From positions 25,936,272 to 26,000,271 of the forward strand of contig NC_049980.1 in assembly GCF_000003815.2 (NCBI RefSeq): 64,000 bases of DNA, given 5' to 3'. This stretch comes from Branchiostoma floridae. Its lineage: Eukaryota > Chordata > Leptocardii > Amphioxiformes > Branchiostomatidae. Shown in pieces: positions 6,452 through 63,600 of this stretch. The notes below the pieces were generated by a model, which was given only the letters and a program-made list of their open reading frames with translations, made no database searches and was not told the origin of the DNA. The translations under genes were made by a program, and so were the position numbers. Position 1 is the first letter of the stretch; every line of letters begins with the position of its first letter.

Positions 6452-6886
6452 CCATCGGCCCTATTTTTAAGGGGGGGGCTCTAAGCCATCGGCCCTATGT
6501 TTAAGGGGGGCCTCTAAGCCATCGGCCCTATTTTTAAGGGGGGCCTCTAAGCCATCGGTCCTATAGATATATATTTAAGGGGGGCCTCTAAGCCATCGGC
6601 CCTATGTTTAAGGGGGGCCTCTAAGCCATCGGCCCTATGTTTAAGGGGGGCCTCTAAGCCATCGGCCCTATGTTTAAGGGGGGCCTCTAAGCCATCGGTC
6701 CTATGTTTAAGGGGAGCCTCTAAGCCATCGGCCCTATGTTTAAGGGGGGCCTCTAAGCCATCGGCCCTATGTTTAAGGGGGGCCTCTAAGCCATCGGCCC
6801 TATGTTTAAGGGGGGCCTCTAAGCCATCGGCCCTATGTTTAAGGGGGGCCTCTAAGCCATCGGCCCTATGTTTAAGGGGGGACCTC
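6452..6886. repeat. 33-bp minisatellite, about 13 copies
   Basis: About 13 head-to-tail copies of a 33-bp unit containing CCATCGGCCCTATGTTTAAG, then GGGGGCC and TCTAAG. Most copies are identical or differ by one base; the two leftmost carry TTTTT instead of TGTTT, and one copy holds an ATATAT insertion near 6565. Because 33 is a multiple of 3, the minus strand stays open and encodes an 11-residue repeat (APLKHRADGLE). I treat that as a by-product of the period, not a gene. Confidence 0.93.
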
Positions 6887-9800
6887 AAGCACATTTAAGA
6901 AAGAACCCACCACACTTCTCAATAATAGCAGGGGCAGGCCAAATATACTGGGTATGCAAATATCACCAATATCACATATAAATTCTGAAGTATGGGAATC
7001 TATAAAGCCCTTTTATATTCCTATAATTGCCTAGTCTAATTTATATATTATGATATTATGGATGATGATTATCTTCTTCAAATCTATGATGCTATTACAT
7101 GGCTGTTGTTCATAAAACATCATGATATTTTAATGAATGGGTTGATATAGTAATTGTGAGGATCCTTTCTACATTATCTTTTCTTTCAGTCTGGCAATCT
7201 GTGGGGTATAATGTTGTAAGTACATTATCTATACATACACATTGTCTGTCAAGTCTGAGGTCTTCTCATCAGTGCCTTGACTTTTTTTTGTGGAGAATTG
7301 AAATGTGTTAACCAAACAAAGGTTAGAGTCCATGCATTTGCCTGTTACACAGGTATAAAACCAGTTGCACTGCATAGTGACACAAGCTGACACTTCAAAC
7401 ATATGGGTCAATGTTGTCGTAATCTCAGTGGTTATTGAGAAAAATAGTTTTGGAGTTGATGTAACTCATTGTTTGGTACGACACTTGAAGTTGCTACGAT
7501 CTTGCAAATGGTGGTTTTGGTTGAGACCGTTGTTCTGTGTTCAGAGAAATCAAGCAATGCAAATGCAGACATTGTTTCCTGCCGATTGAAGCAAATCAAA
7601 ATGGAATATAGACAACTTGAATTGAAATCACCAGTTCTAACATTCATGCGCTTGTGTTGTGGGATCTGTACCATGGGTACGATATACAAATGGCCAAGGT
7701 ATGCAAAATGTTTAGACTCTGTATATTTCTTTGACAATCAATCAATCTATCCATCAATCAGTCTTTATTGCACAACAATTGTAACGTTGAACAATGCAGG
7801 GCAAGGTCTTGAGCAATAAACGCACAGAACATCAACATAATAATGACATTTTGTATGTACAATGTATTTTGGTTGGGGACAATTTTCATTTTGCATTTTT
7901 TTTTTGCTGATGGACCATCCTGTACAGTGGTGTTACCTCAGCTGTGTGTATGACAGGGGTGGGCAAGTGCACCATTCCCAGGATACCCAGGCCTGGGGTT
8001 AGGTCTCATTACCCCGGACCCAGGGGACACATTACCTTATCACCACTCAGCTGTCCGCAGGTTTCACCTGTTGTGGCCCCTTCACCTGTTCAGCCTGCCT
8101 CTGACACTGGTGTGACCAGCTGGTGCTTAGGTTAGATTCTACCCAAGGCCTCACTTTACCCCAAGTTTACTCCTCGAACATCATCACCCCAAGGCCTGCC
8201 CACTTTCTCTGTCACGTGTGGTGCATCTACACATCTGTAGTGTGACATATGTGCTGTGGGAGTACTTGCCATTGTAAACTATATGAATAGCAATTATTTG
8301 TTTTCTTGTCTGACATTGTGTGAGCACAGGTGTTAGTTAGAAGGGAGAGAGAGGCTCCTCATCACATCACCATGTCATGTACTTGGCACTATGGGAGGTT
8401 GAACCAAATAAGTTCAACCCATTAATGTCAAAGATTAAAGACTTCCATATTCATATATAGATTGACCGTATGGCCAAACTGCAACAGCTGGTTCTGTTTC
8501 AAGTTCGCTCTTCACCTGGTCGTGTGCTTTAGCGTAAATTAGATACGAATGGATTAATTATGAAAGGCCTGATGCTCATTTGCCTGTGAGTTGAAGCATA
8601 CTACTGATTAATCTCCAAGTAGATGTTGGGGTAGAGAATTCTGACCAGCCAGTTTTTCTTCCTAGTATATGTATCATAATGTACTCTCAAGGGCTGCCCA
8701 TAGCTTTAGATTTTTTTCTTTCTGACCCATTGTTTATAAAACCTCATTGTTAACTCTGTCATTTTAGCTTTCAAAAATACATTTTCATCAATTCTATGTC
8801 ATGAAGTTAAGTTTTGTCCTGAGACCAAAGGACAGGCCTGGAGAGAGCCTCAGTACTGTTAGAAAAGCCAGTCTGTCACCAACATTGCATTTTCTATAAG
8901 GGTCCCTCCAAAACGTAATGCTGTTGGTTTTGTTTGTTCCATCAAATGAAATGAAAATTGGCACAAAGAAAGATATAATCTTCCTATTAAAGACTGAAAT
9001 ATCAATTTATTTTCCAGATTATTATGACTGGCTGAAGTGATTTCAATTTGACCACACCCTTGGAAGTCCAGTCAAGTGAAAGAGCAGTGCAATTAATGTG
9101 CAATTAAAAAATTTCCTGACCCACATTTAGCTATTGTATGAGACAGAAACTGCACATTATATAAAATGCATATCTGTACAGGCCACATGCATACATTTTT
9201 GTATTTCGATGAAATATTGAGCCAGTTGTAAAACCAATGGCATTACTTTTTGAAGGTTCCTCATGCCCCCACATCTGCTTGGAGATTGCCTACAGGTGAC
9301 CTTTAGAAGACCACTGTGACAGAAGAGGAGCTGCTGATCATGACTTGTGTGTATTTTAGGATGCTGGTGATGGAGGAGTAGCTTGCTTGACAGTAATACG
9401 ACCCAGTGTGTTTGGTTCAGGTTTTTGGTGCTGGGTTAAACTGATGGTGTTGGAGGTCAAAGGGTGATGTCCAGCGTTATTGAGCAGGACGTCCCCTTTC
9501 CTGTGGTCTCACTGCTGGACTCGTAATGAGGGGCCCTTCAAGGCGAACATGTTTCCTGCCGAAGTGTGCTCCTAGTTTGGGTGTCTGTGTTGCAATTTTT
9601 GTATGAGGTAAAGCGTATCACACACCTGTCACAGTGAAGAAACTGGTAGAATGTTTATTCTTCATATCCCAACAATATACTGCATAGTGCTATGCCGCAA
9701 TGTTACTGAATATTCCTTTGAAGTTGGAGCCATATCACAGCCACTACTGTATTCAGTAGTTTGTCTACACACATTAATTTGCAGGATAAGTGAAAATTTG

Positions 9801-22878: not shown

Positions 22879-28979
<6,101 letters not shown>

Positions 28980-31443: not shown

Positions 31444-32564
31444 GCATCTGCATCTGCATCTGCATCTGCATAGGATACCCCCAAATGACCCCGCGAGGGG
31501 CAAAAGTAGGGGGGGGAGCTGAGGCTCCCGGGTTAGGGCGGGCAGGCCGCCTGCCTGGCACGGAAGTGCTCAACGTTGGGAGCACTTACAACCGTGCCAG
31601 GCAGGGCATTCCACTCGGGAATTGTGCGTGGGAAAAAAGAATGTTTGTAGATATCGGTGCGTGCAAATATGTGTTGATATTTGAAGTCGTGACTACCCCG
31701 GGTGCGCCCTTGGGCAGGCTTCAGAATATTGCTGGCGTCTATGTTAATATTATTGTTGACTACTTTATAGAAAAAGGTGAGGCGGGCGTTCCTCCTCCTT
31801 TCGGAGAGAGGGCGCCACTGCAGGTCTGAAAGCATTTGTGTCACGCTGCTAGTCTGCCGGTAGTCATTTAGGGTCACTCGGGCTGCCCTGCGCTGGACGG
31901 CCTCCACCGCCTGTATCCCTTTGTTGGTGTACGGGTCCCAGACGATGGCACTATATTCCAAGTGAGGCCGTACCAGCGCTTTGTAACAAGTGGCCTTGAC
32001 CCTAGATGGACAATGGGTCAAGTTGCGCCGAATGACTCCTAGGACCTTACCAGCTTTGCTAGTGGCGTGGTTGATATGGGTGTCCCACCGCAAATCGTCG
32101 GACAGTTGTACTCCAAGATAGGGGTGGGACTTAACACCGGTAAGGGCTTCTCCACAGAGGGAGTACTGAGTTATGATGGGGTGCTTTTTACGGGTGATAT
32201 GGAGGATGTGACATTTAGAGGGGTTGAACGACATGAGCCAACGATTTTGCCATTCTGTTAGCGCATCGAGGTCAGACTGCAGCCCTTGTGCATCAGAAGG
32301 CTTGCTGATAGTTCGATAAATCAAGCAATCGTCAGCAAACAGTCGAACATGTGAGTCTACGGAATCGGGTAGGTCATTACTGTAGAGCAGGAATAGCAGA
32401 GGGCCTAACACAGTACCCTGCGGAACTCCAGAGGTGACCTTGACAGCTTTAGATGTTCCACCGTCAAAGACAACCCTCTGGGTTCTCTCCGTAAAGCAAG
32501 GCTCTTCCATCTTGTGACCTGACAGACATGACTTCAACTGTTTTGTTCCAGGCCCATTCAACAA
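31444..32564 (-). mobile_element. 5'-truncated CR1/L2/Jockey-type LINE with an open RT fragment
   Basis: A 343-codon minus-strand ORF (32564-31533) covers the last part of a non-LTR reverse transcriptase: SGVPQGTVLGPLLFLLYSND, the catalytic FADD box, YLGVQLSDDLRWDTHI (thumb), then the C-terminal block ending FFPRTIPEWNALPG. There is no endonuclease and no fingers N-terminus, as expected for 5' truncation. Downstream on the minus strand the copy ends in four tandem hexamers (GCAGAT, about 31444-31472), the kind of short 3' tandem repeat typical of CR1/L2 LINEs. The intact frame suggests a fairly young insertion. It faces the plus-strand relic at 31071-31225. Confidence 0.9.
31551..31604 (-). 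other. Long hairpin at the 3' end of the LINE ORF
   Basis: CTGCCTGGCACGG (31551-31563) pairs perfectly with CCGTGCCAGGCAG (31592-31604), and AAGTGCTC (31564-31571) pairs with GAGCACTT (31580-31587). A 4-nt bulge and an 8-nt loop complete a 21-bp stem. It overlaps the last codons of the RT ORF. Confidence 0.8.
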
Positions 32565-32999
32565 GATAAAGCCAGGCTACCCATGTGCACTTAGGGGGTC
32601 CTGTGGGGCATGTTTATGTGTCCTGGTCTGGGCAGGGCAAAAATTGGAATGATTTCCATAACTGATAGAGCACCCTTTTACAAAACAACCAAAATAGGGT
32701 GCTGGAACAAGAATATTTACTTCCAAGTACTCTCTCACTCCTGTGGTGTAGTCTTCATGCATACAGATATCTGGACATGACTGGTTGACATGCATGTGTT
32801 GGGCTGGGTCTGTCCCTTTGTGACTCATTCACTGAGACTTGAAACAAATTATGTAGGGACTCTTACGACAATACTGACTATTATTTGAGATCTACAGCAG
32901 ATAACGGTGGTACACGAGCTGCTACAGTGTTGATATAAAAACGGCAGTCACAGTACAGGCTAGATCGTTTAAATCCGGCAACAACAGTGGCCCAGTTTG

Positions 33000-34818: not shown

Positions 34819-37800
34819 ATGGCGTACACACAACCGGCTGGAAAGCGGAAAATCTGCTACTACTACGATGGTAAGTAGTGCATTCCCGATAGAATCTTAC
34901 ACATGGATTAATGCTTACATTCTAGAGACCACTTTGAGCAGAGTTACGGTGAACTGGCTGTGCTAGATAGTTTTTTCGGGGCAGTTTTTCCGGACCTGCA
35001 TATAGAACTTGAAACACTGGACCGCCGGGTGGCGCGCTTGCCAGACGGAACAACAAAGGACTAAAATTCGTGTTCGCCTTGCTTTGGGTTGAACAAGTTT
35101 ACCCAACATTTACTGTTTAGTGTTGGTCAAACTGTTCACCTGGTCCAGCTGAACTATTCGGTAGATGCTTTAGGCGTCTGCAGATCACACCAGACGAATT
35201 GTTGTAGATTCTCCCGCTCAAAATACTTCGTTTCTCTTCTGGTGCACAGCAACGTAAACGTCGTTTGTACTAGTTCAGGTTTGGGTAAACTAAAGGTGTT
35301 GGGAGAGGTGTCAGATAGCTTACTAGTATGTTATGATGGTAGGTACTTGGCCTCAACAGACATGATTTGTACCGTAAAACGTTGCAGCATATAAGCGTAC
35401 AAGTCAATAATTTTTGACATATTAATAATCATTTAACAATAATGATTACTGTCGGTATTATGCCAATGCATGTTACTGTAACATCCCAAATATACATCAC
35501 TTACATGTGCATTCCCCCTCAGCTCTGGAACCTTATAATTTACCCAGTTTCCAAAAATTAAAACTAATTTCTAGAACTCGTTACCACGGAAGTCTAGCCC
35601 TCTGTTCTGTTCTGTTGCATTGCATTCAGAAATGCTGTATTGCAGCTTGTTAGCTCAAAGTTGTTTTCCATTCCTTTCACACTATCAGGTGACATTGGCA
35701 ACTACTACTATGGCCAGGGTCACCCCATGAAGCCACATCGAATCCGCATGACCCACAACCTGTTACTCAACTATGGACTGTATCGAAAGATGGAAATCTA
35801 TGTAAGTGCACTACTTTCTGCATTCGAAGAATGTCTCGTATCATCGTTTTTTAATGGCGTACTGAAAGTTGTTTATGAAGAGAGAATGCAAGGCATAATG
35901 TCCAGACTCTATCTTTTGATTGTCATTTATTTGCTGAAGCAGGGCTCGAAATACTGGGTGCATGTGCACCCAGGTGCACCCAAAATTGGAACTGTGCACC
36001 CATTTTTTTTCAATATTTTCTTAGGTTTATGTATGGAAAGAGATCAAGTATACTAGTATACATCATATTCTTGACATCTAAGTGTTAGAAAGATAATAAA
36101 AATATCTGTCATGTTATTTGTTTAAGAATTTGATAGCTTGTAAGTTTTGTTAGTAGGTTTTTACATTCTACTTAAATTTAAGTGGTGCACCCAAAAATAT
36201 TTTGATGCACCCAATTTTTAAAGCTGGGTGCACCAGTGCACCTAATCCCAAAAATAAATTTCGAGCCCTGCTGAAGTGACTTTTTTATGAGCAATTTTTT
36301 GTGCAACTTGTTCCCAGCGGCCACACAAGGCTTCGTTTGAAGAGATGACTAAGTACCACAGCGATGACTACATCAAGTTCCTCCGTTCCATCCGGCCAGA
36401 CAACATGTCTGAGTACAGCAAACAGATGCAGAGATGTGAGCATTTCCAACCTCCCACTAGATAGATGTGTACATATCATGTGTAGAATTGAAAACAAGCT
36501 GCATGGCGAACTTGCTTCAGTGGTTTTAGAGCTCAGTGTACAAAATACTTTTCTGAACCAGGTTGCACAGTGTGCAACTGTGAGCATACATAACATTTTG
36601 CTATCTTATAAGCATGTTTGTTTCAAACTAGAAATTAAGGAACTTAAGAATAATAGTATCTATTAACTATATTGGAAACTTACAAAATTGACCTATGAAT
36701 TATTAACAATTTATAACGTTTATGACATTATTATACTATGCCATTGTCCATATTGTATATCTTAAAAATACATGTAAAAGTAAAACATAAATTTATTTCT
36801 GTGTTTTCATAGACAATTTATTGTTCTGTTCTTCCGATAATGTCAATCTGCTGAGGAATCGTCAATTACTGACATGTTTGGCTGATATGAAATGACGCTG
36901 CGTGGATCCATTTTTTCTTCCAAGTAAAATTGACAACAAAATGAAGTTCTGAGGCTCAAAATCTAGGTTGTGCACTGTGCAACCTCAGTTTAGAAGTAAC
37001 TTGCACCAAGCAACAAGTGGTTGCAATGTGCAAGTGGTATTTTGCACGCTGGGGCTTATGTGTGTTTTTCTGATGAAATGCTGTTTTTGGAGGTACTGAG
37101 GTGTATTTTTACTCTCCATTCTACAGTCAATGTAGGAGAGGACTGCCCGGTGTTTGATGGGCTATATGAGTTCTGCCAACTGTCAACAGGAGGATCTGTT
37201 GGTAAGTACATCAGCATGTTTCTCATTTATTCCTTATCTGCAGTTACACTGCCTTTGGAGAAACAAAACACTGAAATAACTTACCAGTTACCAGAACCAT
37301 CTATGCAAAATAAGTGTTTGAAAATATGTAGACAAAAGATTTCCGAGTACTGACCAAAACTCCTAGTATAAAGTTTTTAAATATCATGGATTGTAACACA
37401 TGCCATGATTGCATTTCTCTATTGACAGCTGGTGCAGTGAAGTTGAACAAGCAGCAGGCTGATATAGCAGTCAACTGGGCTGGCGGTCTTCACCACGCCA
37501 AGAAGTCCGAGGCCTCTGGATTCTGCTATGTCAACGACATTGTTCTCGCCATCCTTGAACTGCTCAAGTAAGGACACCAACTTTGAATATTCAGCACTTC
37601 ACATAGAAAGTTATTTTGAAATTTAGAATTATAAGAAAACAAAGCAGCTGTCTTCTTGCTTCACGTTAACATTGTAACTTGGAGTGTATTCATTTAATTA
37701 TTTGATAAAATGTCTTACAAGCCATTACAATTTACAGAAGTGATAATGCAACGTCAGCTCAGGATACCTCGCATAGATACAGGACTTTATCTACTTGGTC

Positions 37801-40800
37801 TTGAAGAGCAAAAGCTCTCTGCTAAAAGATGTGCTTGCAGATTTTTGGTACTGGGCAAAATCCATACTATATTGAACTTTGGATGAAAAAAAAATGTGTC
37901 TGACTGACATTGAGTGTGATGTGACCCCAGGTACCACCAGCGTGTGTTGTATGTGGATATTGACATCCATCACGGGGACGGTGTGGAGGAGGCTTTCTAC
38001 ACGACAGACCGCGTCATGACTGTGTCCTTCCACAAGTACGGGGAGTACTTCCCAGGAACTGGTGACCTCAGGGTACAGCACTATGTCTTCATCTGTTTTT
38101 GCTGTTTGGCTTTTTCTAGTACATCTAAGATAGAAGTTACCTTTGTCATAAATTGTCTCAAATGATGAAGCCATCATACAGGCCTATTTGTCTTGAAAGT
38201 TTAGTAGTAGTCCACTGTGTTCTGCTGCTGCTGAAAGTTTATCATGAAAGAAATGTTCTCTGGACAGGTAAGTCCTTTTTTTTCAACAATGAGAGCACAT
38301 TTTTTATGTAACAGATGTGTCTATCTGTCAGACACTGAGACAGTAGCCATTGTTCTTTGTGTTAATGTTAGTACACTGTGAAATAAACAGAAGTTGGATC
38401 AGACATAGTTTAAAAAATCTGAATGTAACTTAGTCAAGAAATCTTTAGCAAATTAAATTTGAGCAATCTGGTGCTTAAAACTTATGGATTTCAATTACTA
38501 TGTATTTGAACATGCAGCATACTGCACAAGAACATGCTCAATGTAATGCATGCTAAACAACATAGCATGCTGTCTGAAAGAAATCCTCAATTTTCATTAG
38601 TTTTCAAAATTCAATATATGGCAATACATGAGCACAGTTGTCCTTGAGGAAGAAAAATTGCCATCTTGTTGGCATTTCATAAATAAATTTCATCATGTAT
38701 GTAGGCCACATAGGCGCCGCTCATTTTCTACAAGATGGGGGTTGTTTTCTCTCTTTACAGGACATTGGTGCTGGAAAGGGCAAGTACTATGCTGTCAACT
38801 TCCCCCTCCGGGAAGGCATCGATGACCAGGCATACGAAACAATCTTTGAACCAGTAAGTGCTGGTTGCTTACTGTTTTTGCAGTGGCCTTGTCATACCAT
38901 AACTTTGCTGTGTTTTTCTACCAGGACATTGGTGCAGGAAAGGGGAAATACTACGCCGTCAACTTTCCGCTACGAGACGGGATTGACGACGAAGCGTATG
39001 AACACATATTCGAGCCAGTAAGTTTTGCAACCACCGCGACAATCACGTCTTATTAATCCTCCGCACCTTTTTCAATCACGCAGTTGGGGTGATGATTGTT
39101 AGTGTTGGGGAAGTGGAGTAATGTGTACCCAGGCCAGGATGGCTGCAGATCCACCGCATCTTGCCGTGATGTTGGTGAAACAGCATTTCCACACAGAACA
39201 GTTGTACAAGTGTGTCACCGATACATTTACAATTGTCAATCTGCTGGACACTGTGTTCTCTTCTCCATATGTTAGAAATAGGTGAACTGTTGTGTGTCTT
39301 TAGGACATGTATGTTTTTCCTAACTTTACCTGTAGCTATCTCTAGTAGGGCAACATATGTATATATAGTGTCACCAGGTCCAATGTTTAGTGTCTCATTA
39401 CAATTGTCCTGCATGCAAAGTACCTTAAGGAAAATACTTTTGAACAAAAGACCCTATCCCCTCTGTGTAACTTCAGCTTTGTCAGTTCCTTCCAAATAGT
39501 GTGCCCTTCTTTATATACAAACTGCCTTGATAATTCTTATGTAAGTGGCATGTTATGGAAAGATTTTCAGATGCTGAGAAAGTCTTAACTGTGTAACTGT
39601 CAACTACATCCAAAGTTCAGTGACTAACTGTCAGGACTTTTGCCAGCTTTTAATTTTCCCACACATTCCAGTTTCCCAATGTCAAAAATAAAGGGGAGTT
39701 TTGATTATCTGCAGAAATAAACCAATCATGACTATTCATCATAATTTGCAGTTCAACAAATGAGAGAATGATAGCTATCAATGCGACCAATCAGAGAGTG
39801 GATGGATGTCCGTTAGATATTATTATTTTTATGTATTTATTGTGTAACTCAACATTTTGACGTAGTTGGATAGGTCTATTTTTGCCTGACAATGTTATCT
39901 GAATTTTATTTTGACATGAGCTGGCAAGAACCCTTATTAATGTTGTTGATGTATGTCTGTTTCCTAACCTTTTTGACAAAATGGTAAGGAAGAGTGATAT
40001 TTGATTTTTTTTCAATTTTGTGTGTACTAACTAGTAGATATGGTAACTAACCAAGGACAAGTCATTTTTTTTCCACTCTGAAAATGAAGTTTGTGAGCAT
40101 GAAAGTCTCCACAGTATTTGGAGGACAAATTTCAGATGAGTGTATTTTTGCTGATAAATAAACTTAGGACTTAAGCCAGATGACCAAATTTGGAGAATAC
40201 TGAGGAGTTTCTGCAATCTTTGGTGATTGCCATGATACCTAAGGCAAAGTAGGAACTTTTGGTAAAACCCATGAAAGAATCAGGAAAGAACATGGAGATA
40301 TTCATGCTCACCAACTGTATTACTATACCATGAGTCAGTTCTCTGGCTCTGATATATTCTTCAAGTCTGACAACCATTCCACATTATATGTGCTGTCTAC
40401 CACAAGTGTCAAACTCACCTCACACTTTTCTCCTCTCAACACATCCACACGGGTACCAGAAACCATAGTTAAACAGTGGTTGAAGTACTAAGGAAGACTT
40501 CTCCTTGTTCCAGGTCATGTCCAAGGTGATGGAGATGTACCAGCCCAGTGCCATAGTACTGCAGTGTGGGGCAGACTCTCTGTCAGGGGACAGGCTGGGC
40601 TGCTTCAACCTCTCGCTCAAAGGTAGGACCTGGAGCCTGGCTACTCTGTGGTACTGGTGCAAATGTGAGACAACCATGATTGCCATGTTGTGAAAAAAAG
40701 AGCTCAAGAATCTCCTTATTTGCTCATGTTATTATTTATTTATTTACTGATCTCGTAGGGTAGGGGCAGGGAAAAATTTTGTCCATTCCATCCTCTGTGA

Positions 40801-43800: not shown

Positions 43801-44192
43801 CATTCATTGATAGATATAGTCCACTTGATGACTGCAGTCACTGCATGCAATGCACAATAAGAAAAGTGCCATTATTAGTAATTTTAGCTTTCATGTACCA
43901 GTCATTTCTATAATAAGTATTATTAAAATAAAATGTTAAAAAGGAATAACTTCTCTTGAAGTGATCTCTTTCAGCCACATCTCCCTTTCACTGCAATTTG
44001 TAAGTAGGTGTAGTATGTGTCCTGGCCTGAGGGGAAATTCATTAGTTTTGCTCCTTTTTAACTGCATTAGGTCCAGTGAATGGCTCCAGCACAGTCAGAC
44101 CCGCCCTGGGGACTTCTACTGGATCTCCCCTGGTGGCTCCCCTGGACCCTCCCGCCTCCACCCAGCCTCAGGAAGAGAAGATGGAGCACTAA
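34819..44192 (+). CDS. HDAC1: Class I histone deacetylase, HDAC1/HDAC2 type
   Basis: Zn-dependent lysine deacetylase, the catalytic subunit of NuRD/Sin3/CoREST-type nuclear complexes. Exons: 34819-34870, 35689-35801, 36318-36435, 37127-37201, 37429-37567, 37931-38072, 38761-38853 or 38925-39017, 40514-40622, 40993-41133, 41391-41499, 41706-41764, 41942-42013, 42632-42781, 42915-43002, 43547-43632, 44071-44192 (TAA). All are GT/AG and in phase, giving 555 residues with one copy of the duplicated exon. Visible: [18 protein letters not shown] start, [17 protein letters not shown], the tandem His in [11 protein letters not shown], Zn ligands in DIDIHHGDG and DSLSGDRLG, the catalytic Tyr in [14 protein letters not shown], then the acidic tail ([25 protein letters not shown]) and a KKRKR basic patch. 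The tail is about 70 residues longer than the 482 of human HDAC1. It is probably the single pro-orthologue of vertebrate HDAC1 and HDAC2. Confidence 0.97.
35940..36271. mobile_element. hAT-like MITE with CAGGGCTCGAAAT termini (GGGTGCAC type)
   Basis: Termini CAGGGCTCGAAAT and ATTTCGAGCCCTG are perfect inverses, with CTGAAG on both flanks. The interior carries GGTGCACC palindromes near both ends. About 330 bp, in HDAC intron 2. Assignment to the hAT superfamily rests on the CAGGG start only. Confidence 0.85.
36529..37053. mobile_element. Diverged relative of the hAT-like MITE (GGTTGCAC type)
   Basis: The left part (GAGCTC then AAAATACTTTTCTG, then GGTTGCACAGTGTGCAAC) and right part (TTGCACCAAGCAAC, then AATGTGCAAGTGGTATTT) follow the layout of the element at 42041-42381, but the termini have decayed. 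HDAC intron 3. Confidence 0.55.
38761..38853 (+). CDS. HDAC1: HDAC duplicated exon, copy a
   Basis: 93 nt, phase 0 on both sides, acceptor TTTACAG and donor GTAAGT. It encodes residues 214-244 ([19 protein letters not shown], then [12 protein letters not shown]). Complete and open. Confidence 0.93.
38925..39017 (+). CDS. HDAC1: HDAC duplicated exon, copy b
   Basis: 93 nt, phase 0 on both sides, acceptor TTCTACCAG and donor GTAAGT. It encodes the same segment with three replacements (E231D, Q236E, T240H). It lies 71 nt after copy a. By eye about 23 of 93 bases differ, mostly at third positions. Confidence 0.93.
42041..42381. mobile_element. hAT-like MITE with CAGGGCTCGAAAT termini (CCTGCAC type)
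   Basis: Termini CAGGGCTCGAAATAC and GTATTTCGAGCCCTG, with CAGAC on both flanks. The interior is built of CCTGCAC / GTGCAGG motifs arranged as inverted pairs. 341 bp, in the HDAC intron that follows the exon ending at 42013, only about 28 nt after its donor. Confidence 0.87.
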
Positions 44193-57600: not shown

Positions 57601-60600
57601 TAATGTACCATAGGAAAACGCCAGGTAACCCATTTTCGAACTAGGCATGCCTTTCAACAACCGCTACACACCTGCAAAAAATAAAAAAGTTCCATCCACA
57701 ATTTCTCGAGTTATATCCTGTTGACCTACATACAGACCCAAGTTGGCAAAAACATAAGCTTCTTGGCGAAGCTAATTAGATCGCCCCATTGAATTCAATG
57801 CTTTAACACACAACTTCTATGTCCGCAAATCCAATTAAAACACGATGTTTTGCTTTCTAATGTAAGCACACACGTTTGTTAGACAATAAAAAAATTTTCA
57901 CCCAAATCTAGCCGACGCAACGATTTCTATCACATTTCAAAATGCACCTAGCCGCTATCCGCTAGAGGTCGTTTTCAATACCCGGAGCCTGACCGGAGCA
58001 CTCAGTACAAATAAACGTAAACGTCCGAGGATCGATCGGGTCACGAAACTTTCGTGCATGATCATGCCAGTAATACACAAGCTTTCATCGAAATTCCTTT
58101 TCATATCAGTTATGGTTTATTAATGGGAATTTATGGTCCACCTAAAACAACGCTTTGCGGGCCAGATAATTTTTTAGCCCGGATTCCTTTAGACTCGGAG
58201 TAATACAGGAATGAGACCTCAATGGTTTAAACCCTTCTCTATCTTTTGCTCATGCACCAACAGTCAGTCCTCTCACGCATAGTCTTGGTTGGCGGAAGTA
58301 GTGACATGAACTCGTCTAACTGTAGGCCTTTACATTGACGCGTTACTAGAAAAACAAGAGTTCGGAGACCTCATACCTCCATGAAATAGTCTGATTATGC
58401 AAATGACTTTCACATCTGCATAATTTATGATTGCTAATGTACACCTTTCACTAACTTACACAGGTCACAATGTTGACAGCCCAATCATTTACTATATGTA
58501 TTAAGAATTAGGACACTTTCACATTTTTTATGCAAATTAGGGACTTATTTGCATAATTAGAATCTGCTTATCTTCCACCTACCACAAACTACATGATACA
58601 TGTATCTGAGTCCTATATTGGAAAACACTGTAAATATAGATTTTCCTCATTAAGTATGCAAATTCAGTCCAATTTTGCATAATTTGCATTTCATTATATA
58701 CATCTCTGCCACAGGTATCTGCATACCAAATATCATGGAAATCCATCATTCCTATCTTCCGTTATGCTCCTTGTATTGGAAGATTTTGACAAAAACACTC
58801 CTACAGTTCTAGAGCAAGCTGCTAGGAGGCCCAAACATACACCACTTATTCCTTACATCACAAGCTATCTGCCACCAAAAAATCAAGACCATAGCATGTC
58901 CAGGTAAAAAGATACAAAAAATTGAAGTTCTGCTGCAGTACCAAGGTCACATGCCAGGGTGCCCAAAATTGACCTTGACCTTCGTCTTCCCAACCTCTAC
59001 CCAAGTATCATTGTAGTCCATCTAGAGGTTCTTAAGTTATGCTTACCACAAATATCCGGAAACATAAACACACACGCAAACAGACACCCCCCCCCCCACA
59101 CACACACAGACACACCAAAAACTATACCTCCATTTTTCATTTAGGTAACAAGCTCGACTTGTTTTGTATCCACAGCTTTAGCTTTTCTTCCATCCATATT
59201 CCCATGCTAATTACAAATGTGTAATTACGTTGGATTGGATGAATGAATAAATGAATCATACAGAAATAAAACACGTCTACCCTTTTCATTAAAATAAGTA
59301 TGACACAGTGACATCGATATTTTCGTAAGCCTCCTTATGATACATTAAGTACATTTTGTAGGGAGGTTGGCCAGGCCAGTGCGACGAGGCGGCCTCCCAT
59401 GCCATCCTGGATCGCTACGCGGAGCTGGGAGGAAACTTCCTTGACACAGCAGACATTTATGCAATGGGCAAGTCTGAAGAATACATTGGCAGCTGGTTGG
59501 AGAAGTGAGTATCTTGTTACACGTCGATCAAGGAAGGTTAGACACTCCAGTATTGAGAGTATGTATATTATATGTCAACCATACCACAGTATGGGTTAAA
59601 ATATATTGTTTTTCTGGTGTTCTCCTCCTCCGTCTTCTGTCAGATTCATCTCTGTAGCATTGTGAGCTTCTAGGGGTTGACATCGATGTCTCGTCTAGCT
59701 ACGTTATGATTATTGATCCACATTATTCTGGGTAACAAAAACGTCTTCAACTGGAAAAGTGTGGGGGGGGGGGGGTATACAAAAGTAACGGGTTCCGCAC
59801 TGGTGTTCCAGTGCTGAATCAATGGGTCGAATCGGCCTCAGCACTGGTTTTCCAGTGCTGAACGGCCTTGTTGCAGTGCTGAAGCTCCCTCGGCACTGGA
59901 ATTCCAGTGCTGAACTTTTCCGAGCACTGGTTTTCCAGTGCTGAACTTTTCCGAGCACTGGTTTTCCAGTGCTGAACTGCCGTCAGCACTCGGGTACCAG
60001 TGCTGAACTCGCGGCGGAGAGGCGGCGAGCCAGTTCAAAGGCCATTCAGCACTGGTTACCCAGTGCTGAAACCGGCGTCAGCACTGGAACCGAGTGCTGA
60101 TATACAAAAGTAACGGGTTCCGCACTGGATTTTCCAGTGCTCGGGAACTTTTCAGCACTGGAAGACCAGTGCTGAAAAAACTTCAGCTCTGGGCTTCCAG
60201 TGCTGACGATTATAAAGCACTGGAACGTTCCAGTGCTGAACGTAATATTCATTCGTAGCATGCGTCCGTACGGCTGAGTTATTTCCTTTCGACTTGTTAC
60301 CTTGTTTGGCGGAGATTGACATTACACATGACATTGACAACAACAGTTTTATTTCATGAACTAATGAAAGAATAAAAAGAGGCCATGACTTTGAGCTTTT
60401 ATTGAATTGTGTGAATGTGATAGATATAGCCCTTTCGGGAATCATTTCGGTGTCCCTCTTGTTGTAACTAAATTGGGACCTTCCAATGACCTTTGGCCAA
60501 GAAAATTAAACGTTAGACGATGGCGTTACATGTGAGGTGAATGAGTAATGGACCATGTTTACGGCTCGAGGTGCGGTAGATATCTATGTATATAACGTTA

Positions 60601-63600
60601 CCACAGTTGTTTTGACAAGTTACTAACGTGATTGAAGACGTTTTAGACAGGTTAATTTCGTTATAATTGTAAACAGCAGCTCATGCCGCCTTGAGTCGTG
60701 TCGCTAGAGTCGGCGGCTTCAGCACTCGGTTTCCAGTGCGGAATATTTGTCAGCACTGGATTTCCAGAGCTGAAACGTCCTCAGCACTGGATTTCCAGTG
60801 CTGACAGGAGGACATTCAGTGCTGAAGCTGCCTCAGCACTGGATTTCCAGTGCTGACGGCGGCTCAGCACTGGACTTCCAGTGCTGACGACCACTTCAGC
60901 ACTGGTGTTCCAGTGCTGACAGAGGAGACCGTTACTTTTGTATATTTGCGGCAGAACGTTCAACGTTTGGATGCCTGCCTCTGTGTCTTATGATCCATGA
61001 TAGGCATCAAAATTAAGTCAAAGTGGAAGACGGCTAACATCTTATTTGCCGAGTTGACGTTTGGGGATGTGTTGCATTTTAGGCAGCAGCGAGAGAAGTT
61101 TATTGTTGCCTCCAAAGTCCGGTTCAACACCAGCCGCTGGACTCAGGACATCAACCGCTGGGGACTGAGCCGCCATCACATCATGCATTCCATAGACGAC
61201 AGTCTGCGCAGGCTCCGTACGGACTATCTGGACCTGTACCAGGTGGGTAGATTGTCCGTTTGTTAATCTGTTGTGCGTTTTACTCTATGAATATTCGCAG
61301 GGTGTAATGTTTGTTTTATAACCATTTGGTCCAATGTCAGTATCAGGGTAATAATTGCCATCAACATCAGTGCAAATAGCAAAGCCATTTGCCACCAACA
61401 AACTGTTTCTTCTCACTTTGCCTCAACTTGTAACACCTTTTCTATTTTCATATCGTCCTTTGCACACAATGTTAACTCATAACGTAAGCAGATACATGCT
61501 TAATTTGCGCGTCATTTATGGCGTCTTCCTGGTGGTGCACGTGTCATTTGTAATCTCTCGTCATATATAACCAATCTGGTCCAAGGGGCCGGAAGAGAGC
61601 GCATCATATCGCAATGTGTAAAGCCCATCATGTTGTAGACACAATATTTTCAGACAATGATTTCAACAGGAGTCTATTTAAGACAGGTTAGCTATTGGGT
61701 ATAGTTTCCCCCCTAACCGCACGTCACCATTCTAGATCCACCTCTGGGACGAGGCTGTCCCCATCGAAGAGACCCTGTCAGCTCTGAATGACCTGGTGCG
61801 CGCAGGGAAGGTGCGTTACCTGGGCGCCAGTAACGTCAAAGGCTGGCAGTTGCAGAAGATTGTTGATCTTAGCAAGTACATGGGACTCAACAAGTGGATA
61901 TCTTTTCAGGTGCGAAATGTTTAGTTTCAAAACGTGCAATCTTTGAAAGATTAACAATAGGGAAGATATTTGCCACTCAATGGAAATTGAAAATCACATT
62001 AACGATTTGTACCTGTCAGGTCCGTAGTTAAAAATAATAGTCCGCCGATAATGCTACCGTGTGGAATTTGAAAAAAAAAATCACCTATAAAGAGTAGAGT
62101 GATGTTGATCTTGAATTCTAGGCGGAGTACAGCCTGGTGTGCCGTGGAATAGAGTGGGAGCTGACTGATGTCTGCAGGCGGGAGGGTATCGGTATCATCC
62201 CGTGGAGTCCACTCAAAGGGTGCGTTGAATAATCGTCATCGTTTAAGTCAATTGCTGTGAACCATTTCCAAGTTGACGAGAGTCATATGAAACGTTCAGC
62301 AGGACATTCCACTCATCTTTTGGTGACAATGGCTGCTAATTTGGGGATGATGCCTGTTACTTTAGAGTTTTGTTTCATATTGCTTTATCCATGTAGCAAA
62401 AAGAAAGTATTGATCATGAATCATTCATCCTGTAAGTGACGTCACTGTTAACGTTTATCTATTGATCAGAGGTCTGCTGACTGGGAAGTTCAAAAGAGAA
62501 GCCGCTGCGCCCGAGGGAAGCAGAATCGCACACTCCACAAAGACTGGCCATACCTTCGAGGCGGCTCCGGATTTCGAGAAGGCCAAGAAAGATGACAAGA
62601 CCTGGAACGTCCTTGATGTCATGAAGAAGGTTGCCGAAGCACACGGTAAGAGTAACATATGATATGTATCATCTTTCCATATTGTTATCCAACTCTATAT
62701 GTATATCGGTACATCAGTTCCTACGGAAAGATACAATATTATCCTGTGTCAACATTGCCATGAGACTAGAACCATATCGACTTTTTTTCCCTTTCGAAGT
62801 CAATAAGCATAGCTCAACTTTCATGCCACCAACACCGGTTACCGCAAAATGACATAGATTTATATTAATCGCCAGCGCTAGAATGTACTTTACCCTTCTG
62901 AGCTACATTCTTGTATGGACTACCATCATCATCTTCTATGGACTACCCTGTGGGAGGAGAATACCGCAGTATCTGATAAGTGTTGAACTGATTATGACCG
63001 TTACTTTCAGGCAAGACTGTGGCGCAGGTGGCAATCCGCTGGCTGCTACAGAAGGACGTGGTGTCGTCTGTCATCATTGGCGCGAAAACTCTTCAGCAGC
63101 TGGAGGACAACATGGGCGCCTCCACTGGCTGGGAGATCACGGAGGAACAGGTAAGGGAGCTAACAGGCATTTCATTAAGTTCAATATCCACATTGCATTC
63201 AGCCCAGGAAAGCTAGTGCCAGGCAAGACAGTTTGACAGAATACCGTAAACGTGAATATTGTCCATTGAAAGTCAATGCAAACACAACGTGATGGCTATA
63301 ACGTCAGAACCTCTAAGTATTCCTCTCAACCCTTACCTGTGACTTGAGATCTAAGATAATGTGCTCATGATCAACGAGTGAGGAATCTTGAACGCACACA
63401 GGCATCATGATGATGGTGGCAGACCAGAAAGGCACTGCACAAAATGACATCACAGATGCTTGGGAATATTTGTGGTCGGGCTTTCTAGATCCAGACGAAT
63501 GTGTTTGTATTACAAGTAGTTTACTTTAATGAAGAGTAGGTTATTACATTTACCACTAACGTTGCCCTACGTTGACCATGTTCCAGATGGCAGAACTCGA

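Follow-up and report, generated by a model that had tools for sequence, protein, structure and literature searches.

An old tandem exon pair in the apparently single HDAC1/2 gene of amphioxus, very probably used one copy at a time

Tandem exons in known systems and in amphioxus HDAC1/2

Tandem mutually exclusive exons are already known as a kind, and the described examples that lie closest to the amphioxus pair reported here are those of JNK and U2AF1. Based on the relevant parts of PMC8586503, human JNKs use an exclusive exon pair, and the JNK of amphioxus is subject to Nova-mediated alternative splicing. According to the portion of PMC5224494 concerned with them, exons Ab and 3 of U2AF1 are tandem duplicated alternative exons through which an essential nuclear factor is made in two isoforms, and transcripts carrying both exons are lowered by NMD. 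This report deals with a tandem pair of exons, 7a and 7b, within the HDAC1/2 gene of Branchiostoma floridae, located in a window of 64,000 nt (the whole stretch of DNA that was analysed); as judged from the sequence, this old and selected pair in an apparently single gene is real.

Like JNK (MAPK8/9/10), amphioxus HDAC1/2 has tandem in-frame exon copies of the same length, situated in the catalytic domain of a regulator in wide use and differing in few residues. Comparison of a JNK peptide with the B. floridae genome gave nine exon matches, including three tandem 72-nt copies on contig C3 and two on contig C5, and it is these five copies that are considered here, the four other matches being left aside. 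The C3 copies (C3:33986446-33987715, minus strand) adjoin a JNK-like exon and constitute three tandem exons rather than two, with 5, 9 and 9 of 24 residues differing among them, and the C5 pair differs at 2/24. All five JNK-type donors begin with GTATCCT, four reading GTATCCTT and one GTATCCTC, and are presumably U12-like. The HDAC pair, in contrast, has GTAAGT donors and a separation of 71 nt, versus 556 and 498 nt between the C3 copies and 760 nt between those on C5; given their donor type and far wider spacing, the JNK-type exons support the kind of arrangement but not the mechanism. The likeness to U2AF1 is that of tandem alternative exons serving two isoforms of one factor; however, joint inclusion in HDAC1/2 stays in frame, and exclusion would thus need either the short intron or trans-acting factors.

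In vertebrates, two genes encode the closely related deacetylases HDAC1 and HDAC2, whereas amphioxus appears to have one gene with two exons, whose isoforms would differ in this segment only; the vertebrate HDAC1 and HDAC2 chains differ at 4/31 residues of the segment, compared with 3/31 between 7a and 7b. Among the titles and starts of abstracts listed from an open-access library, none concerned an alternative exon pair in HDAC1/2; subscription papers and gene databases lay outside that scope, and both isoforms may already be present in a gene database. The term 'HDAC' is likewise absent from the main text of the tandem-exon surveys PMC9741552, PMC5740500 and PMC9013439, as well as from PMC8797185, supplements being outside the scope in each case.

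The HDAC1/2 gene, its copy number and its surroundings

The HDAC1/2 gene extends on the plus strand from its start codon at 34819 to a probable stop at 44192; exons 1-12, to 42013, were modelled and translated, giving an open spliced protein, and exons beyond 42013 were sighted. Exon 6 (37931..38072), the upstream partner of the pair, ends in phase 0 with the donor AGG/gtacag. It is followed by exon 7a (38761..38853), an intron of 71 nt (38854..38924) and exon 7b (38925..39017), and the downstream partner, exon 8 (40514..40622), begins in phase 0 behind the acceptor ttccag/GTC. Both copies are 93 nt long and in phase 0/0, and each has a pyrimidine-rich acceptor and the donor CCA/gtaagt; by eye, these donors and acceptors are U2-type in look, and strong. 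The initial annotation had described adjacent 93-nt, phase-0 exons with good acceptors and GTAAGT donors, and its coordinates, splice sites and translations all agree with the present model, as does its statement that joint inclusion would add 31 residues in frame. The remaining 11 modelled introns of the gene measure 177-1496 nt, versus 71 nt between the copies. The pair thus consists of adjacent homologous exons of equal length and the same phase that encode the same protein segment, with coding constraint on both copies. The predicted protein matches Pfam PF00850 (E 1.6e-89 for the 7b form, 1.3e-89 for the 7a form), and the top solved-structure match of the 7a form is an HDAC2 chain (E 9.7e-253, residues 1-383). 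In the comparison with structure chains, those of HDAC1/2 outrank RPD3, clr6, HDAC3 and HDAC8, which places the protein in the HDAC1/2 branch of class I.

Genome searches covered 513,431,437 bases in 431 contigs; the peptide and family searches score best candidates only, and their counts are therefore lower bounds. At E<=0.001, the 7b peptide matched three exons: the two copies of the pair and, on C9, one that is HDAC8-like. The deacetylase-family search gave at least 19 exon matches, on C2, C4, C5, C9, C10, C11 and C15, and those on C2, three in number, belong to the HDAC1/2 gene itself. A 296-base stretch containing the pair has one matching place in the genome, and the HDAC3-like and HDAC8-like loci each hold one copy of the segment within the 3.1 kb examined per locus. 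Since neither genome search, with best candidates scored, gave a further HDAC1/2-like exon, a retrocopy or second gene was rejected, and the amphioxus HDAC1/2 gene appears to be single. Beyond amphioxus, scans covered collections of viral, prokaryote, phage and plasmid DNA; that of viral contigs yielded no relative (0 from 4 stretches), and that of genome contigs yielded 1 from 41, a short MAG contig. Positions 51-218 of this 4.8-kb contig, which belongs to a Dehalococcoidales MAG, encode a stretch 59% identical to the eukaryotic class I HDAC segment; the contig may have entered the bin as a eukaryotic contaminant.

Of the translated pairs that lie on the same strand and no more than 5 kb apart, 73 in the whole window, the HDAC pair ranks second by score, and many of the 40 of those 73 that were listed fall in one stretch near 59700-61000. 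The top-scoring pair, ~14 kb from that of HDAC, belongs to a Src-family kinase gene (22879-24320, minus strand), in which two candidate last exons stand in tandem and agree at 68% of 69 residues; either one completes the kinase domain and ends with a Src-type C-tail tyrosine and a stop. In a motif scan, this gene showed a single SH2-like WFFGK (near 27581), a single glycine loop (near 26300) and a single HRDL (near 25198); other genome matches to the last exons are 30-61% identical and lie elsewhere. The last exon of the Src-family gene seems to be duplicated; if so, the gene would choose between alternative last exons bearing the regulatory tail. Two further features of the window were noted. 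A 347-residue open frame with GVPQGTVLGPLLFLLYSNDL and FADDCLIY (31533-32576, minus strand), which lies ~2 kb upstream of where HDAC translation starts, reads by its motifs like the reverse transcriptase of a non-LTR retrotransposon, and ~33-nt GTTTAAGGGGGGCCTCTAAGCCATCGGCCCTAT-like units, judged by eye, form a tandem array at 6465-6900.

Divergence, selection and age of the two copies

Exons 7a and 7b differ at 23/93 bases (12 transitions and 11 transversions), distributed 2/1/20 over codon positions 1, 2 and 3, and yet only three residues are changed (E/D231, Q/E236 and T/H240), leaving 28/31 in common; the earlier count of about 23 differences, mostly silent, is thus borne out. When 23 random changes of the same mix were placed in 7a, the mean number of residue changes was 14.6 and the minimum 8, and three or fewer occurred in 0/20,000 placements. 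By NG86, dN is 0.064 (pN 0.062) and pS is 0.917, with 18.5/20.2 synonymous sites differing, such that dS is undefined through saturation (bootstrap lower bound 1.46); the dN/dS check proposed for the copies accordingly gave a low dN beside a dS beyond saturation.

The segment comprises residues 214-244 of the spliced amphioxus protein, as had been stated, and of the HDAC2 chain, corresponding to 213-243 of the HDAC1 chain. Among the 28 residues common to both copies is the Tyr of the second K+ site, and the three differing positions presumably lie on the loop and helix that follow the lysines and Tyr of the segment. K218 and K220 of HDAC1 also fall inside the segment, and the part of PMC6527704 that treats them attributes an inactivating effect to their acetylation together with that of four further lysines. 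The initial annotation had pointed to these lysines and to the K+ site, which is true of the segment but does not tell the copies apart, the residues being identical in both; hence, the choice of exon cannot act through a change of K218 or K220. As to ancestry, position 231 is E in 7a and D in 7b, and D is present in 6/6 other class I sequences (human HDAC1, HDAC2 and HDAC3, yeast RPD3, and the amphioxus loci L009 and L003, labelled HDAC3-like and HDAC8-like by similarity). Position 236 is E in 7b, as in HDAC1/2, and Q in 7a, as in HDAC3, and position 240 is T in 7a and H in 7b, compared with A, Q and H in HDAC1, HDAC2 and HDAC3, respectively. Based on these three positions, 7b, which is also closer than 7a to human HDAC1/2, looks ancestral and 7a mildly derived. 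The A237 common to both copies, in place of the S of HDAC1, 2 and 3 and the T of RPD3, weakly suggests that the exon was duplicated after the split from vertebrates. With only three mild changes, and with Q236 of 7a and H240 of 7b both found also in HDAC3, the functional difference between the copies may be slight.

According to one rival reading, the tandem is an artefact of assembly, in which two haplotypes or a mis-join were set side by side, and amphioxus is indeed highly heterozygous, at about 3% in the B. floridae parents described in the relevant part of PMC12862219. However, base divergence between the copies is 25% and biased to third positions, their flanking introns are unrelated (without gaps, 31-32% of 71 bases are identical, and 45% of the nearest 20, which carry the splice signals of both copies), and the stretch with the pair matches a single place in the genome; an assembly duplicate was rejected on these grounds and is regarded as extremely improbable. 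It is also very improbable, if a little less so, that one copy is a fossil, i.e. a duplicate exon that splicing no longer includes; 7a does lack D231, which all six of the other class I sequences share, but the frames of both exons are open with strong splice sites intact, and silent sites are saturated while the protein has been kept, where 23 unconstrained changes would have brought ~15 residue changes and not 3. On the sequence evidence, then, both copies are old and under purifying selection, and are neither an assembly duplicate nor a dead exon. The original claim of an old duplication with both copies selected is upheld by the third-position bias, the random placements, the saturated silent sites and the unrelated flanking introns.

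For the age of the duplication, two- and four-fold synonymous third positions were counted in 25/31 codons, the three isoleucine codons (of which 2/3 differ) and the three changed residues being excluded, and 15/25 differ between 7a and 7b. An NG86-based P of 2e-5 was set aside as too optimistic, pS at two-fold sites being overstated by this method, and degeneracy-based values were used instead. These give, with ranges reflecting transition bias, P of 0.001-0.010 at dS 0.656, 0.005-0.031 at dS 0.8, 0.022-0.084 at dS 1.0 and 0.13-0.27 at dS 1.5. Among five B. belcheri-B. floridae values for GFP clades taken from Table 3 of PMC4911609, the part of that source relied on, 0.656 is the largest, and GFP genes may not be typical. 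From this degeneracy-based divergence, the duplication is probably older than the split of B. belcheri and B. floridae, put at ~120 million years ago in the passage concerned of PMC5787515; gene conversion, if present, would make the duplication seem younger than its true age.

Splicing of the pair and its meaning

The favoured interpretation, which is held to be likely, is that a tandem duplication of exon 7 arose within the cephalochordate line, probably earlier than the separation of B. floridae from B. belcheri, and that the copies are spliced as alternatives, one per mRNA. Exon 6 would join either 7a or 7b, and either copy would then join exon 8, with the joining of 7a to 7b hindered for the spliceosome. 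Both isoforms would be active class I deacetylases, their 28 common residues holding the two regulatory lysines and the K+-site Tyr, and the three differing positions would tune activity, stability or partner contacts.

An intron of 71 nt may still be spliced in metazoans, and the difficulty of joining 7a to 7b would stem from a branch point that probably lies 41-49 nt from the 7a donor. By a simple four-point consensus, from which the branch points were guessed, candidates at intron positions 41 and 49 (30 and 22 nt from the 7b acceptor) each score 3/4. The sole 4/4 candidate is at position 18, upstream of an internal AG at intron positions 29-30 that should push the branch point downstream, and all three candidates are <50 nt from the donor. 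A donor-branch distance of <50 nt is considered in the pertinent part of PMC5740500 to be a potential source of steric interference, applying to 57 human clusters (9%). The initial suggestion of mutual exclusivity therefore fits the architecture, from which we infer exclusive use itself as very probable. Pairing of the RNA as the mechanism of exclusion was rejected, as folds around the pair had no significant structure (z -1.17; further stretches -1.51, -1.16 and +2.03). A possible hairpin enclosing the 7a donor (AACCAGU-AAGU-GCUGGUU, 38849..38866, plus strand) is weak and speculative; it was seen in two folds, one of them of 38830-38900, with z of -1.17 and -1.16, which are not significant, and in a fold of 38844-38924 the donor pairs elsewhere, so that the hairpin is not stable to the choice of stretch. 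Of the splicing-factor motifs, TGCATG occurs once in each of the two long introns flanking the pair, and YCAY was counted as raw numbers.

An alternative interpretation, considered unlikely, is that the copies are alternative but not strictly exclusive; forms containing both or neither would then arise as well, perhaps as inactive or dominant proteins that set the dose of HDAC. The frame does not bar joining, since both exons are 93 nt and in phase 0, and either joint inclusion or double skipping keeps the frame and gains no stops relative to the single-copy forms; moreover, joint inclusion of duplicated exons can evolve, as is argued for the COE gene in the part of PMC2394523 concerned. Standing against such use are the 71-nt intron with its branch candidates <50 nt from the donor and the location of the 31 residues gained or lost, which lie inside the deacetylase domain and would be expected to break the fold.

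With one copy per mRNA as the preferred reading, an isoform switch in a core chromatin enzyme is predicted. Sin3, NuRD and CoREST have HDAC1/2 as their catalytic core, and the enzyme has been treated as one fixed catalytic domain. The interest of the exon pair lies in the identity of this gene, together with the nearby Src-family gene and its apparent last-exon duplication. A further, tentative proposal, for which the odds are judged to be somewhat unfavourable, is that a single HDAC1/2 gene makes two catalytic-domain isoforms, as vertebrates do with two genes, in a switch between tissues or stages that has been kept for well over 100 million years, and that the differences near the regulatory lysines alter activity or the choice of complex. 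If alternative catalytic-domain exons have long been kept in a one-gene chordate, the three residues would mark a tunable site of the enzyme, and amphioxus would offer a test case for whether alternative splicing stands in for the vertebrate duplicates HDAC1 and HDAC2.
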